DNA of 64,000 bases from an uncultured Deefgea sp. (GTDB lineage: Bacteria > Pseudomonadota > Gammaproteobacteria > Burkholderiales > Chitinibacteraceae): NCBI RefSeq assembly GCF_947072475.1, contig NZ_CAMTIA010000006.1:29798-93797 (forward strand), in the 5' to 3' direction. Each line of letters starts with the position of its first letter. Position 1 is the stretch's first letter. The notes under the pieces are model-generated. The model worked only from the letters and a program-made list of their open reading frames with translations. It had not been told where the DNA came from and did not search any database. A program made the translations under genes and the position numbers. Of the stretch, positions 6,868 through 63,840 are shown piece by piece.

Positions 6868-6916
6868 GGGTATATCAACACAAGACATAAGCAACATACC
6901 GTAGATAAATATACCC
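6868..6916. repeat. 49-bp inverted-repeat element, copy 1
   Basis: GGGTATAT at the left end is the exact reverse complement of ATATACCC at the right end, with 33 bp between. It starts one base after the stop codon of the YffB-like gene and ends just before the 3' end of the convergent lipoprotein gene. It has the same total length as four other elements in the window. The inner arms of this copy are the least paired of the five well-supported copies. Confidence 0.7.
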
Positions 6917-17071: not shown

Positions 17072-17120
17072 GCGTATTGCTCGCCAGGGCATGTGAAATC
17101 AGCGTAAGCGCGCAATACAT
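17072..17120. repeat. 49-bp inverted-repeat element, copy 2
   Basis: Left arm GTATTGCTCGC pairs with GCGCGCAATAC (one mismatch), with two further inner pairs. When aligned with the GGGTATT/AATACCC ends of the other copies the total length is again 49 bp, although the outermost two bases at each end have diverged. Unlike most copies it is not next to a stop codon; it lies in the leuC/HTH divergent region. Confidence 0.65.
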
Positions 17121-20051: not shown

Positions 20052-20540
20052 ATGCAAAAAGCCAGCTTTAATGCCGTTTTTGACCCACACTGCCAACTAT
20101 TGATACTAGGCAGTTTACCTGGCGACGCCTCGCTTACCGCAGGGCATTACTACGCCCACCCGAGAAACGCCTTTTGGCCCATCATCAGTCAGCTCATTGA
20201 CGTCGACTTAACACAACGCCCCTTTGCTGAACGCTACACCCTCATCAAGCAATACGGCATTGCGCTCTGGGATGTGGTGCAACAAGCGAGCCGTGTTGGC
20301 AGCCTAGATACAGCGATTCAAGCGCCGCAATTGAACTCGCTACACACTTGGTGCGCCGAGCTCGATCAATTGCAGTTAGTGGCCTTTAACGGCCAAACCG
20401 CCGCTCAATATGGCAGCAAACTCATCCCTGGGTATATAAAGCAAATCGTTTTACCATCGAGTAGTCCGGCGTATACCCTGAGTTTCAATCAGAAATGCCA
20501 TACTTGGCGCACTGCGCTTGCGCCCTATTTAAAAACCTAG
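20052..20540 (+). CDS. DNA-deoxyinosine/uracil glycosylase (UDG superfamily)
   Basis: A 162-residue base-excision enzyme of the family 6 / Mug-like group. Motif 1 is LILGSLPGDASL near residues 18-29, followed by YYAHPRNAFWPII, the substrate-pocket segment of hypoxanthine-DNA glycosylases; motif 2 is IVLPSSSPAYTLSF near 136-149. It would remove deaminated purines or uracil. The start is the ATG at 20052, with poor RBS. Its 3' end overlaps ubiB by 4 bp (convergent). Confidence 0.82.
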   Translation: MQKASFNAVFDPHCQLLILGSLPGDASLTAGHYYAHPRNAFWPIISQLIDVDLTQRPFAERYTLIKQYGIALWDVVQQASRVGSLDTAIQAPQLNSLHTWCAELDQLQLVAFNGQTAAQYGSKLIPGYIKQIVLPSSSPAYTLSFNQKCHTWRTALAPYLKT

Positions 20541-24416: not shown

Positions 24417-28259
<3,843 letters not shown>

Positions 28260-31975: not shown

Positions 31976-33909
31976 GTATGAGCCGTCAACTGAGTCCTCA
32001 AGAACAACAGCAACTTGGCGTGCTGATGCTTTTGGTTTGCCTGCCGCATCTCATGATGCAAACCCCTTGGTTATCCGGTTTGCTAGGCTTGCTACTACTG
32101 ACTTATTGTGGCTTACGCCCCCAATGGCGCACGCAAATCCCGCGCCACTTTAGTTTATTATTGGCGACCCTCAGTTTGCTACTCGTGAATCAAGTCCATC
32201 AAACCCTGATTGGGCGCGAAGCTGGGGTGGCCGTATTGATTGCGCTATGTATCAGCAAACTGTATGAAACACGCTCAGTTCGCGATGCGCATGCCATGCT
32301 ATTGCTGGCCTTTTTTGCGACAGGGATCAGCTTTTTACATGGGCAAGCGCCTTGGCAAGCGGCGTTGGCTGGCTTGGCCTTAGTCGCAACCGTTTGCATT
32401 GCACTGCGTTTAGAAAACAAGGTACTAACCCTAGGTATATCCATCAAGACAGCAATCAAAATCTGTTTGCAAGCAATACCCCTTGCTATTTTATTATTTA
32501 TTTTATTTCCTCGACTACCAGCACCGCTTTGGAGTTTACCCAACGAGACCGCCGCTCGCACGGGTCTATCTGGGGACAAAATGTCGCCGGGCAGCTTAAA
32601 TCAATTAATCCAAGATGATCGCATCGCCTTTCGTGCGCAATTTAACGGCATGGCACCGCGTCAAACTCAGCTGTATTGGCGTGGCCCAGTGTTCGATCAA
32701 TTCGATGGCCAATCTTGGCTACCTGCAACAGCACATTCGAGCAACCCACCGCCAATCATCGCACGCGGCCCGCAAGTCAACTACAGCATCACCTTGGAGC
32801 CACACCAACAAAACTGGTTACTGGCACTAGATCTACCCACTCAGTTCCCACAATCGGCGATGCTGAACTCACAATTGCAATTAATCCAACGCAGCCCAAT
32901 CAGTCAAAGACTGCGCTACACCGCCAGTAGCACCTTACACTGGCAAACCTTGGGTAACGCTGACACTGCAGCGGCACTGCAACTACCGCCTTCTCTGAAC
33001 CCAAAAACAGTCTCCCTCGCGCAAAGCTGGCAACAACAAGCACCTGCACAACGCGTTCAATCGGGCTTGCAATGGCTAAAGACCCAGCATTTCAGTTACA
33101 CACTAACCCCACCATTGCTAGAAAAAAAAGACCGCATTGATGAATTTTTATTTGAATCAAAACAGGGCTATTGCGAGCATTACGCCAGTGCGTTCGCCGT
33201 GCTGATGCGGGCCGCCAACGTGCCTGCGCGTATTGTTACCGGTTACCAAGGTGGCCAGTTTAATCCCAATGGCAATTACTACATGATTCGACAAGCCGAT
33301 GCCCACGCTTGGGTTGAGGTTTGGCTGCCAGAGCAAGGCTGGCAGCGCGTCGATCCGACCTTTGTGGTTTCGCCAACACGCATCGAAAATGGCTTCGAAA
33401 ACAGCTTTGCATCTCGCTTGCAAAATGATGCACTGCCCAGCCTATTGAGTCGCAACGCGACATTCATTAAAGCCATGCGACTGCAGCTTGATGCGTGGGT
33501 GAATCATTGGAATCAGTGGGTGATTGCATACGATAGTCAGCGTCAACTGAATTTACTCCAGCGGCTAGGCATTAATGACTTTTTGTCTTGGCGATTTTTA
33601 CTCTATTTATGCGGTGGATTACTACTTATTCTTGGTGGGTTTTTAGTTTATTTTTTACATCGCAACCCAGCGCAACCGACCGACATGGCCAGTCAATTAT
33701 TTGCGCGCTACTGCAAAAAATTACACCGCTATCAGCTTTACCAAGCACCGCATGAAACCGCCAGCCAGTTTGCCGTGCGCTGCCAAATAGCACAGCCCGA
33801 ATTGGCGGCCAGCATGATTGAGATCACCAATCTCTATTTGGCGGCACGTTATGCCCAAGACAGCAGCGCATTAGCGCAATTAAAAATCGCCATTAAACGT
33901 TTTGCTTAA
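31972..33909 (+). CDS. DUF3488 and transglutaminase-like (TgpA) membrane protein
   Basis: A 645-residue inner-membrane protein with about six N-terminal membrane helices (about 15-180), a periplasmic transglutaminase-like domain, one C-terminal membrane helix near 545-565 and a DUF4129-like tail. The catalytic triad is visible: Cys in QGYCEHYASAFAVLMR near 398, His in QADAHAWVEVWLPE near 440 and Asp in QRVDPTF near 457. TgpA of Pseudomonas has this layout and a proposed cell-envelope transglutaminase function. Its ATG overlaps the DUF58 stop (ATGA). Confidence 0.92.
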   Translation: MSMSRQLSPQEQQQLGVLMLLVCLPHLMMQTPWLSGLLGLLLLTYCGLRPQWRTQIPRHFSLLLATLSLLLVNQVHQTLIGREAGVAVLIALCISKLYETRSVRDAHAMLLLAFFATGISFLHGQAPWQAALAGLALVATVCIALRLENKVLTLGISIKTAIKICLQAIPLAILLFILFPRLPAPLWSLPNETAARTGLSGDKMSPGSLNQLIQDDRIAFRAQFNGMAPRQTQLYWRGPVFDQFDGQSWLPATAHSSNPPPIIARGPQVNYSITLEPHQQNWLLALDLPTQFPQSAMLNSQLQLIQRSPISQRLRYTASSTLHWQTLGNADTAAALQLPPSLNPKTVSLAQSWQQQAPAQRVQSGLQWLKTQHFSYTLTPPLLEKKDRIDEFLFESKQGYCEHYASAFAVLMRAANVPARIVTGYQGGQFNPNGNYYMIRQADAHAWVEVWLPEQGWQRVDPTFVVSPTRIENGFENSFASRLQNDALPSLLSRNATFIKAMRLQLDAWVNHWNQWVIAYDSQRQLNLLQRLGINDFLSWRFLLYLCGGLLLILGGFLVYFLHRNPAQPTDMASQLFARYCKKLHRYQLYQAPHETASQFAVRCQIAQPELAASMIEITNLYLAARYAQDSSALAQLKIAIKRFA

Positions 33910-41178: not shown

Positions 41179-41227
41179 GGGTATTTAACTGCAGAGCATA
41201 TGAAATAAAGCCTACAGTTAAATACCC
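41179..41227. repeat. 49-bp inverted-repeat element, copy 3 (best paired)
   Basis: GGGTATTTAACTG is the exact reverse complement of CAGTTAAATACCC (13 bp), with a 23-bp A-rich middle. It fills the gap between the convergent fbp and haemoglobin genes. No T run follows on either strand, so it is not a textbook terminator. Confidence 0.85.
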
Positions 41228-43002: not shown

Positions 43003-43051
43003 AGGTATTGCTCGATAGCGCAATTAAATAAAAGCTTAGCGAGCAATACCT
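43003..43051. repeat. 49-bp inverted-repeat element, copy 4
   Basis: AGGTATTGCTCG pairs perfectly with CGAGCAATACCT; the pairing extends two bases outward on each side (ATAGG / CCTAT). The middle is A-rich (AATTAAATAAAA). It sits between purT's 5' end and the livF terminator, i.e. after livF's terminator in the livF reading direction. Confidence 0.82.
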
Positions 43052-51932: not shown

Positions 51933-53382
51933 CCGGTTCTCCCGCGTGTAAATCAGGAAAGTCATGGCTGGTTTTATCCCACTGCACGGCTCGACCGGTT
52001 TTATTACTATTTCTTACCTGAGAAAACGCCCGAAAAAATGCGGCAATATTAATCACATTACCGACAATCATTCGCGGCAGCGATTGCAAGCCTTGCCAAA
52101 AGCCAAAATAACGCCGGGTAAAAATAAAGCGTTGCATCACGCGATTCAGCATAAAGAAAAAATTAATCCCGACCAAAATCCACAAACGACTGTCGGACTC
52201 AATCAGCTCAGGAAAAGTCCACCACTCGGGATTGGCCACATGGTGCAACCACGCCTGAAAAACCGTCAGCACAATCACATAACCCATCAGTAAGGAAGGA
52301 AAAGCGATCACGCTTTTTCGATCTCGCGCCAACATATACTTCATTAGGGGTTTACCGCTCCAGCCCAAGTTTTTTGTGCCTTGGAAGACAATACCCACAA
52401 TCCATCTGGATTTTTGTCGAATCGCTTGCCACAGATGATTTGGAAAATACTCCTGCACACAAATCATATCGTGCACGCCTCGTCGGCCAAACCACGCCGG
52501 CGCTTCGCCTTTAAATTGGACTTGATAATGCAGCATCATTTCGCGCGCACCCACTTCATGCAAGCGAAAACCGATCTCATAATCTTCAGTCAGCGTGCCG
52601 GTATCAAACACCACCCCACCATTGATTTCGGACAGCAAACCCAAGGCTTTACGACTAAATGCCGTGCCCACGCCCGCACTGGGCACTTGGCCGGTGAGTA
52701 ATTGCCTTACCAATATATCTTTGCCATGCCATTCAGCAAATTCATCGACATAATGATTGCCGACGACATTTTGCCAAGATCGCGCCAAAGGCATCACCGG
52801 CAGCTGCACTAAATCAAATTGGGGCACCAAGCGATTAAACGCCCGTAATTCCAAAGGATGAATCATGTCTTCGGCATCGTGATACGCCAAGCAAGTGAAG
52901 TGAATCCCTTCTCGCTGTTCCATATCAAGAATAAAAGCGACCACATGATTTAAGCAATCGGCCTTGGTCGTCGGCCCTGGATCACAGGTGACGACTTTGT
53001 GGACATTGGGGTATTTTTTGGCCACCAAGTCCACTTCAGCCTGCGTTTCTGGATCATTGGGATAGGTGCCGACAAAAATATGATAATTGTCGTAGTCAAA
53101 CGTGCTCGCCGCATAATCGGCCATCCGCTGAATCACCGGCGCTTCATGCCAAGCCGGAATCATAATGGCAATGGCTTGCTGCGCATCTTGATACAAATCA
53201 TCGGCATATTCAGGCAGGTATTGACTTCTACGCCATGATTTTCGGTGCTTAAAGCGCCATACCCAATAGCGACAATCAATAAAAAAATCATCGAGCGAGC
53301 TCAAAAAAATCACCACAATCCCCAACTTCAATAATAAGGAGATCAAAAACCAATACGCCGCCAAAACATCGAGCCAACTCAC
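51919..53382 (-). CDS. nfrB: NfrB-like inner-membrane glycosyltransferase, lacking the MshEN domain
   Basis: A 487-residue family 2 glycosyltransferase. N-terminal membrane helix, then GT core [38 protein letters not shown] (DxD-like metal site), [15 protein letters not shown] (TED acid/base) and [11 protein letters not shown] (QxxRW), then two or three C-terminal membrane helices. The usual E. coli protein (about 745 residues) continues after a WDKTxHDFP segment into a c-di-GMP-binding MshEN domain. Here the same segment ([14 protein letters not shown]) is followed at once by a charged tail and stop. Start GTG with AGGTGG five bases upstream, overlapping the wecB stop (GTGA). The track start (TTG) is longer. 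Confidence 0.88.
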
Positions 53383-60266: not shown

Positions 60267-61076
60267 ATGACAATTACCATTAAAACTGCCGAAGAAATAG
60301 AAAAAATGCGCATTGCGGGCCGTCTTGGCAGCGAAGTGCTCGACTACATCACCCCGTTTATTCAACCGGGTGTCACCACCGAAGAAATCGATCGTTTATG
60401 CTATGAATACATGGTTAATGTGCAGGGTACTATCCCCGCGCCATTAAACTACTGCCCACCTGGCTATATACCCTACCCGAAATCAATTTGCACTTCGGTG
60501 AATAATGTCATCTGCCACGGCATTCCAAACAGCAAGCCACTTAAAAATGGCGACGTGGTGAATCTGGACATTACCGTCATCAAAGACGGCTATCACGGTG
60601 ACAATAGCCGCATGTATATGGTTGGCGACAATGTCGCTACCTACGCCAAGCGTTTATCACAAATCACTTTTGACTGCATGTGGATTGGGATTGATCAAGT
60701 CAAACCCGGCGCTCGTTTGGGCGATATTGGCGCGGCAATTCAAAAATACGCCGAAAAAGCCGGTTATTCGGTGGTGCGTGAATTTTGTGGCCACGGCATT
60801 GGCGCGGTATTTCATGAAGAGCCGCAAGTATTGCATTACGGCAAGGCTGGCACCGGCGTTGAACTCAAAGCCGGTATGATTTTTACCATTGAGCCAATGA
60901 TTAACGCTGGCAAGCGTGAAATCAAACAAATGAGCGATGGCTGGACGATTGTGACTAAAGATCGTAGCTTGTCCGCACAATGGGAACACACCGTATTGGT
61001 TACCGAAACCGGTTACGAGGTATTGACCGTATCGGCAGGCACGCCGCCGCGTCCAGAGAAATACCTGCTCGCTTAA
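60267..61076 (+). CDS. map: Methionine aminopeptidase, type I
   Basis: Removes N-terminal Met from nascent proteins. 269 residues. Metal ligands appear in GDVVNLDITVIKDGYHGDNSRMY (two Asp), EFCGHGIGAVFHEEPQVLHYG (His), GMIFTIEPMINAG (Glu) and SAQWEHTVLVTETG (Glu). Here it is upstream of glnD and not beside rpsB, as is common in this group; the map-glnD pairing is known in gammaproteobacteria. Confidence 0.97.
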   Translation: MTITIKTAEEIEKMRIAGRLGSEVLDYITPFIQPGVTTEEIDRLCYEYMVNVQGTIPAPLNYCPPGYIPYPKSICTSVNNVICHGIPNSKPLKNGDVVNLDITVIKDGYHGDNSRMYMVGDNVATYAKRLSQITFDCMWIGIDQVKPGARLGDIGAAIQKYAEKAGYSVVREFCGHGIGAVFHEEPQVLHYGKAGTGVELKAGMIFTIEPMINAGKREIKQMSDGWTIVTKDRSLSAQWEHTVLVTETGYEVLTVSAGTPPRPEKYLLA

Positions 61077-63791: not shown

Positions 63792-63840
63792 GGGTATTGC
63801 CATGCAAGCAATATAAATCATTGATTGTGTGGCAATACCC
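63792..63840. repeat. 49-bp inverted-repeat element, copy 5
   Basis: GGGTATTGCCA is the exact reverse complement of TGGCAATACCC (11 bp), with a 27-bp AT-rich middle. It begins on the base after the glnD stop codon. Confidence 0.82.

Follow-up and report, generated by a model that had tools for sequence, protein, structure and literature searches.

A dyad site of almost invariably 49 bp in Deefgea and two related genera: a candidate boundary element at gene 3' ends

In an uncultured Deefgea sp., two convergent stop codons stand 63 bp apart, and the gap is filled by a 49-bp dyad site with perfect GGGTATT...AATACCC ends (41179..41227; this and all sites below carry no strand assignment), with 7 bp remaining on either side. 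What kind of element is this, and why is its length fixed? A sequence-only reading of the window (the whole 64,000-nucleotide stretch analysed, part of contig C6 of a 3.45 Mb genome) had grouped it with four other inverted repeats of identical length, and proposed recognition by a protein or a structured RNA rather than chance terminators. We show that the copies represent one two-fold symmetric site with a span of almost invariably 49 bp, which on its sequence has the character of a duplex-DNA recognition site.

Copies in the window and the 49-bp span

The five elements listed previously were all confirmed at their coordinates, while about five more window copies, several within genes, had been missed. 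Four of the five match the genome-wide motif RGGTAT-N37-ATACCY. In addition to 41179..41227, these are 43003..43051 (AGGTATT...AATACCT), located in a tandem gap 57 bp past a minus-strand stop and immediately beyond an intrinsic-terminator-like hairpin; 6868..6916 (GGGTATA...TATACCC), located in a convergent gap; and 63792..63840, which starts 0 bp past a glnD-like stop codon. A site is found at the equivalent place in Chitinibacter glnD, 8 bp past the stop. The fifth element, 17072..17120 (GCGTATT...AATACAT), is a degenerate copy that falls outside the motif. Its orthologs in three relatives are similarly degenerate and keep the form GTATTGC...GCAATAC, hinting that weak sites may also be retained. 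Among the additional copies, 20430..20478 (GGGTATA...TATACCC) was classed as noncoding by the gene caller, despite substitutions that look codon-like. The sites 25487..25535 and 53216..53264 lie within minus-strand CDSs, whereas 32433..32481 and 61018..61066 lie within plus-strand CDSs, the latter near the 3' end.

The fixed length was borne out genome-wide, the span being almost invariant at 49 bp with few 50-bp exceptions. When perfect GGGTATT/AATACCC pairs were sought across the whole genome at spans of 34-64 bp, all 37 were found to be exactly 49 bp, and a reversed-pattern control gave 0. Allowing up to 2 mismatches yielded 386 sites versus 5 in the control. Exact matches to RGGTAT-N37-ATACCY numbered 330 versus 0, confirming the expectation that a full-genome search would reveal more copies and that lengths would not vary freely. 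When all 6-mer dyads with spans of 16-89 bp were counted blind over 464 kb of this genome, GGGTAT at 49 ranked first, with 22 observed versus 0.04 expected; the same type of count gave no comparable dyad signal in a non-carrier of the same family. The non-carrier sample (G014, L165-L184) does contain several different hexamer dyads with spans of 78-84, at 5-6 copies apiece, which probably belong to an unrelated family of repeats. For the exact pair, 464 kb of this genome contains 43 at 49 bp, 4 at 50 and at most 1 at any other length of 45-53. In 800 kb of Chitinibacter, 100 pairs span 49 bp and 4 span 50 bp, with none at the other spans of 44-55.

The pairs at 50 bp (L027:6722, L028:3939, L031:620, L032:18270 and L205-L244) occur in both genera. 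A second class was considered for these and rejected, as they are few, mostly coding in Deefgea and for the most part devoid of the inner motif described below. One 50-bp pair in Chitinibacter does possess the inner motif, and may be a genuine variant in spacing.

Single half-sites are not enriched, with 441 copies of RGGTAT compared to a crude estimate of 453 expected. An exact partner at 49 bp was found for 86 half-sites and a one-mismatch partner for a further 45, while most other spans gave 0-3. The concentration of exact and one-mismatch partners at 49 bp thus indicates that the pair is the unit. When one- and two-mismatch partners are counted, we infer ~100 sites in the 464 kb, which would correspond to roughly 700-800 per genome with weak copies included.

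The search of relatives proposed by the sequence-only reading located the site family in three genera, with hundreds of copies in each case. All 7 Deefgea, all 6 Chitinibacter and both Chitinilyticum genomes are carriers with 217-452 sites each; each of the 28 genomes from the family's eight remaining genera contains 0-5 (controls 0-3). Across 368 other genomes sampled evenly from the class, the GGGTAT form reaches at most 2 copies, versus 171 here. The GTDB genome collection, scanned with GGGTATTGC-N31-GCAATACCC, yielded 76 stretches, 73 of which derive from Deefgea, Chitinibacter and Chitinilyticum, the other three being apparent chance singles.

Each half-site approximates to R-GGTAT-(T/A)(G/T)C-N2-T-(G/C)(T/C)-A15-G-(G/A)-C-N-(A/T)-T, the two halves being two-fold symmetric about a dyad centre at position 25 that is AT-rich. 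The outer GGTAT is invariant through the manner in which the set was selected. Position 1 is G or A, and positions 7-9 favour TGC (or A, T, C), a preference inflated for the Chitinibacter and Chitinilyticum loci, which were chosen with a TGC-containing pattern. In noncoding copies T12 occurs at ~64%, A15 at ~80-82%, G16 at ~58%, C18 at ~57% and T21 at ~75%, and coding copies still display A15 at 63-65%. The earlier statement that A15 and A20 are common to all five elements is correct, and A15 remains prominent genome-wide, but position 20 is more generally A or T. Flanking positions are near background, with a mild preference for A two positions ahead of the site's first G. The outer motif (centre near 3.5) and the inner A15 motif are separated by 10 bp, or one helical turn, at distances from the dyad of ~21.5 bp and ~11 bp, which would place both on the same helix face.

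Placement and conservation of the sites

Site density in Chitinibacter is 0.85 per kb in convergent gaps, 0.54 in tandem gaps, 0.07 in divergent gaps and 0.04 in coding sequence, bearing in mind that genes were taken from a home-made codon-bias caller and that coding fractions and stop distances throughout are approximate. The order by gap type is similar in Deefgea. Between a quarter and a third of exact copies lie within coding sequence, at a density ~20x below that of convergent gaps. A role as transcription-factor operator was considered and rejected, given the lack of upstream enrichment and the low divergent compared to convergent density in Chitinibacter.

With respect to stop codons, 37 Chitinibacter sites start 0-9 bp past a stop, while other bins contain at most 10 (a peak of ~four-fold). 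In Deefgea, 14 sites start within this same 0-9 bp interval, and a second peak is observed at 50-59 bp, where the sites follow directly on intrinsic terminators. For Deefgea noncoding sites with a neighbouring stop, 39% start within 25 bp of that stop versus 16% at random. Intrinsic terminators show a weak deficit where a site abuts the stop in tandem gaps (about 6/50 versus 122/515), and no clear difference was seen beside abutting sites in convergent gaps. At L018:10861 and L018:13385, the 3' arm of an intrinsic-terminator-like hairpin consists of the GGGTATT end of a site, the bases being common to both.

Neighbouring sites also avoid each other at short range, more so than their placement in gaps would predict, with gaps of <1 kb making up 2.1% of site-to-site distances versus 7.6% in simulations (P=0.003). 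The presence of one site per transcription unit could be the source of this even spacing. No ori-ter bias was detected in genomes G036 or G011, and a mild unevenness along ori-ter is seen in G034 among the matches listed. Site clusters were inspected for clues to a partner gene, and were found to be rare with unremarkable neighbouring genes. Two near-identical sites 570 bp apart (G034:C1:969074 and 969644) apparently reflect a local duplication.

A comparison of three congeners at ~81-95% identity reveals that the site ends are kept while the middle is heavily changed, with no indels within the 49 bp. In deeper congeners the ends are partly eroded by point changes and the length is unchanged. 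In the window, 41179..41227 has kept ends and a drifting middle in G001-G004, and 6868..6916 has a diverged middle but kept ends in three congeners. Copies within genes encode ordinary conserved protein sequence, in several reading frames and orientations, and at 61018..61066 the encoded protein sequence is identical throughout the genus. Homologs that lack the site align gap-free or nearly so to the site-bearing genes, as illustrated by the gap-free alignment of 32433..32481 to a G005 homolog without an exact site. These alignments together with the ordinary nature of the protein sequence show that the copies are not insertions.

Between genera, unbiased samples reveal that orthologous genes share a site more often than expected, both at the 3' end (5/15 versus 9/91, p=0.027) and at the 5' end (3/9 versus 3/97, p=0.008). 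Cross-genus sharing can also be seen at glnD and at convergent pairs, although these loci were chosen for having sites and are illustrative.

A boundary reading and its rivals

Fixed spacing, symmetric half-sites, helical phasing and the conservation of ends in orthologs were all observed, as expected for a dyad site of a dimeric protein. The fixed length and conserved internal positions uphold the original preference for protein recognition over chance terminators. The binder would be a putative dimer, or two dimers, with two DNA-reading elements per half that would contact two successive turns, and the site geometry suggests it could occupy one face of ~4.7 duplex turns. Any slip in spacing would break contact, which would account for a fixed length combined with a freely drifting interior. 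Once bound, the putative protein may mark gene 3' ends as an orientation-independent boundary, acting either as a transcription roadblock or as a barrier to supercoils or domains. The peak at stop codons, the preference for convergent gaps, the avoidance of divergent gaps and the symmetric reading make a 3'-end boundary role the most likely. This boundary role, for which the site would be symmetric because it has to serve both directions between convergent genes, is less certain than the dimeric binder. The site, its spacing, symmetry, constraint and placement are observed directly; binding, dimeric state and boundary role we infer, and we consider the proposal that a putative dimeric protein binds the site and thereby marks gene 3' ends as a boundary to be about evenly balanced between right and wrong. 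Several observations run against it: the copies within coding sequence, since blocking transcription there should do harm; the weakness of the terminator deficit at stop-abutting sites; the cross-genus sharing of 5' sites, which poorly fits a 3'-end role; and a minority of elements with long matching arms, a feature not expected from simple duplex binding.

These matching arms had been interpreted as covariation. Arm matching is indeed above that of shuffled halves, with z 3.5 for Deefgea noncoding sites, 5.8 and 3.7 for two Chitinibacter sets taken from a search listing and 2.2 for an unbiased Chitinibacter noncoding set. However, the excess is limited to the ~10-18% of elements with at least 9/13 inner pairs and is absent among copies in coding sequence, and covariation is thus a minority feature as opposed to a general one. 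Near-perfect arms are found in 16/93 elements versus 2.9 expected for G036 and 14/77 versus 5.5 for G034, and the excess vanishes when such elements are removed from the G034 Chitinibacter set. This minority may have arisen through quasi-palindrome correction at the DNA level, or perfect dyads may occasionally have been selected. RNA hairpins, or intrinsic terminators whose loop is conserved, would explain the excess matching, the many sites directly past stop codons and the overlap of some intrinsic terminators with a site end. A transcribed hairpin should nevertheless lean to G-U over A-C, and sense-strand mismatches display no such excess (82 versus 101 and 177 versus 199), so that a structured RNA is unlikely on this count. 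Furthermore, the T-tract is absent from the elements examined and Rfam holds no family matching the element. Combined with the minority status of the pairing and its absence from coding copies, this leaves the structured-RNA option of the earlier reading disfavoured and the hairpin or terminator explanation very unlikely. Harder still to credit is an origin as remnants of a REP-like element or of a miniature inverted-repeat element, in which two 24-bp terminal repeats would adjoin back to back, and a mobile element was rejected. Such relics would provide a palindrome with conserved ends, an intergenic bias and many copies. In contrast, orthologs retain the site at conserved positions with no empty sites seen, degenerate copies have unchanged length, coding copies reside in ordinary protein sequence with alignments that are free or nearly free of gaps, and no internal sequence is common to the copies. 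The Y1/RAYT transposase (PF01797) is moreover absent from 5/15 carrier genomes (G003, G004, G011, G016 and G061, with 217-398 sites), which also speaks against the suggested REP-type tyrosine transposase partner.

The main rival to the 3'-end boundary is chromosome architecture, followed by uptake or self-recognition. In the former, the sites would be read by a nucleoid-associated or condensin-guiding protein, the 3'-end bias reflecting only where sites are tolerated. This explanation, which we regard as possible but doubtful, agrees with the hundreds of copies spread over coding as well as noncoding sequence, a spacing more even than simulated, the lack of consistent ori-ter bias and the conservation of end sequence across species. 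Tolerance alone does not explain the peak 0-9 bp past stops, and candidate proteins were not forthcoming: MatP was rejected as a partner (PF06303 in 0/43 genomes, and hence absent from the family), as was KfrA_N, for which the phyletic pattern does not track the sites. On G036:C2, three identical KfrA_N matches (5236, 18769, 32271) occur ~13.5 kb apart, which suggests that a plasmid was assembled there into a three-fold concatemer. Self-recognition or uptake sequences maintained by molecular drive, with the palindromic pair read by a receptor, would likewise account for hundreds of copies and a lineage-specific, dialect-like consensus. Coding copies arising by point change, even spacing and 3'-end placement are further traits of uptake sequences (PMC1852404, PMC3630211). 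Against this, known uptake sequences measure 9-12 bp, lack symmetry, function singly and usually number >=1000 per genome (PMC1852404), whereas here the exact 49-bp pair is required and half-sites on their own show no enrichment, making this explanation unlikely. Going beyond the 3'-end boundary itself, we tentatively propose, with rather more doubt than conviction, that Deefgea, Chitinibacter and Chitinilyticum possess a new sequence-specific chromosomal protein for which the hundreds of 49-bp dyads, located mainly at gene 3' ends, would serve as genome-wide, orientation-independent insulators or boundaries.

Comparison with known systems

A long, numerous and rigidly spaced site implies a dedicated putative protein with a chromosome-wide job, one that would have arisen, or switched target, within one bacterial family. 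The closely related carrier and non-carrier genera offer a natural before/after comparison, and with sites predictable to the base, the existence of sequence-specific boundary proteins at bacterial gene ends becomes directly testable. The element appears to be undescribed: in line with the earlier remark that no named family fits, a search of the open-access journal literature on the motif, the genera and fixed-length dispersed palindromes was negative.

Sequence-specific chromosome organisers such as matS/MatP also consist of many palindromic sites and one protein that binds them. The matS sites are ~13 bp and confined to the terminus, unlike the 49-bp sites described here, which are chromosome-wide (perfect sites are spread round the chromosome) and occur where MatP is absent. 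Similar to REP/REPIN sequences, the sites are palindromic, intergenic, downstream of genes and of high copy number (PMC3116915, PMC3733652). REPs are RAYT-associated, are recognised in the form of single-strand hairpins and have a GTAG or CGTC tag on one side only (PMC3116915, PMC3733652). In contrast, the 49-bp site is symmetric with duplex-type conservation, and the RAYT distribution does not match. No one-sided GTAG/CGTC tag was found, the same motif being present at both ends and the flanks lacking a tetranucleotide tag.

The DUS/USS of Neisseriaceae and Pasteurellaceae resemble the present family in their hundreds of copies, coding copies and lineage-specific consensus (PMC1852404, PMC3630211), as well as in the occurrence of inverted pairs at gene 3' ends, where they are paired as terminators (PMC1852404). 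They differ in being short, asymmetric and working singly, whereas here only the 49-bp pair is enriched. Spaced dyads near gene 3' ends have been described as GAATCCAT-N23-ATGGATTC in Bradyrhizobium japonicum and CCTAC-N19-TAGGT in Desulfatibacillum (PMC5217627). The 49-bp sites share with these a fixed spacer, an intergenic location, a bias to convergent genes and a placement that is not promoter-like. They are distinguished by a longer span, 217-452 copies per genome, a distribution over three genera, a second conserved motif in each half and a substantial coding fraction.
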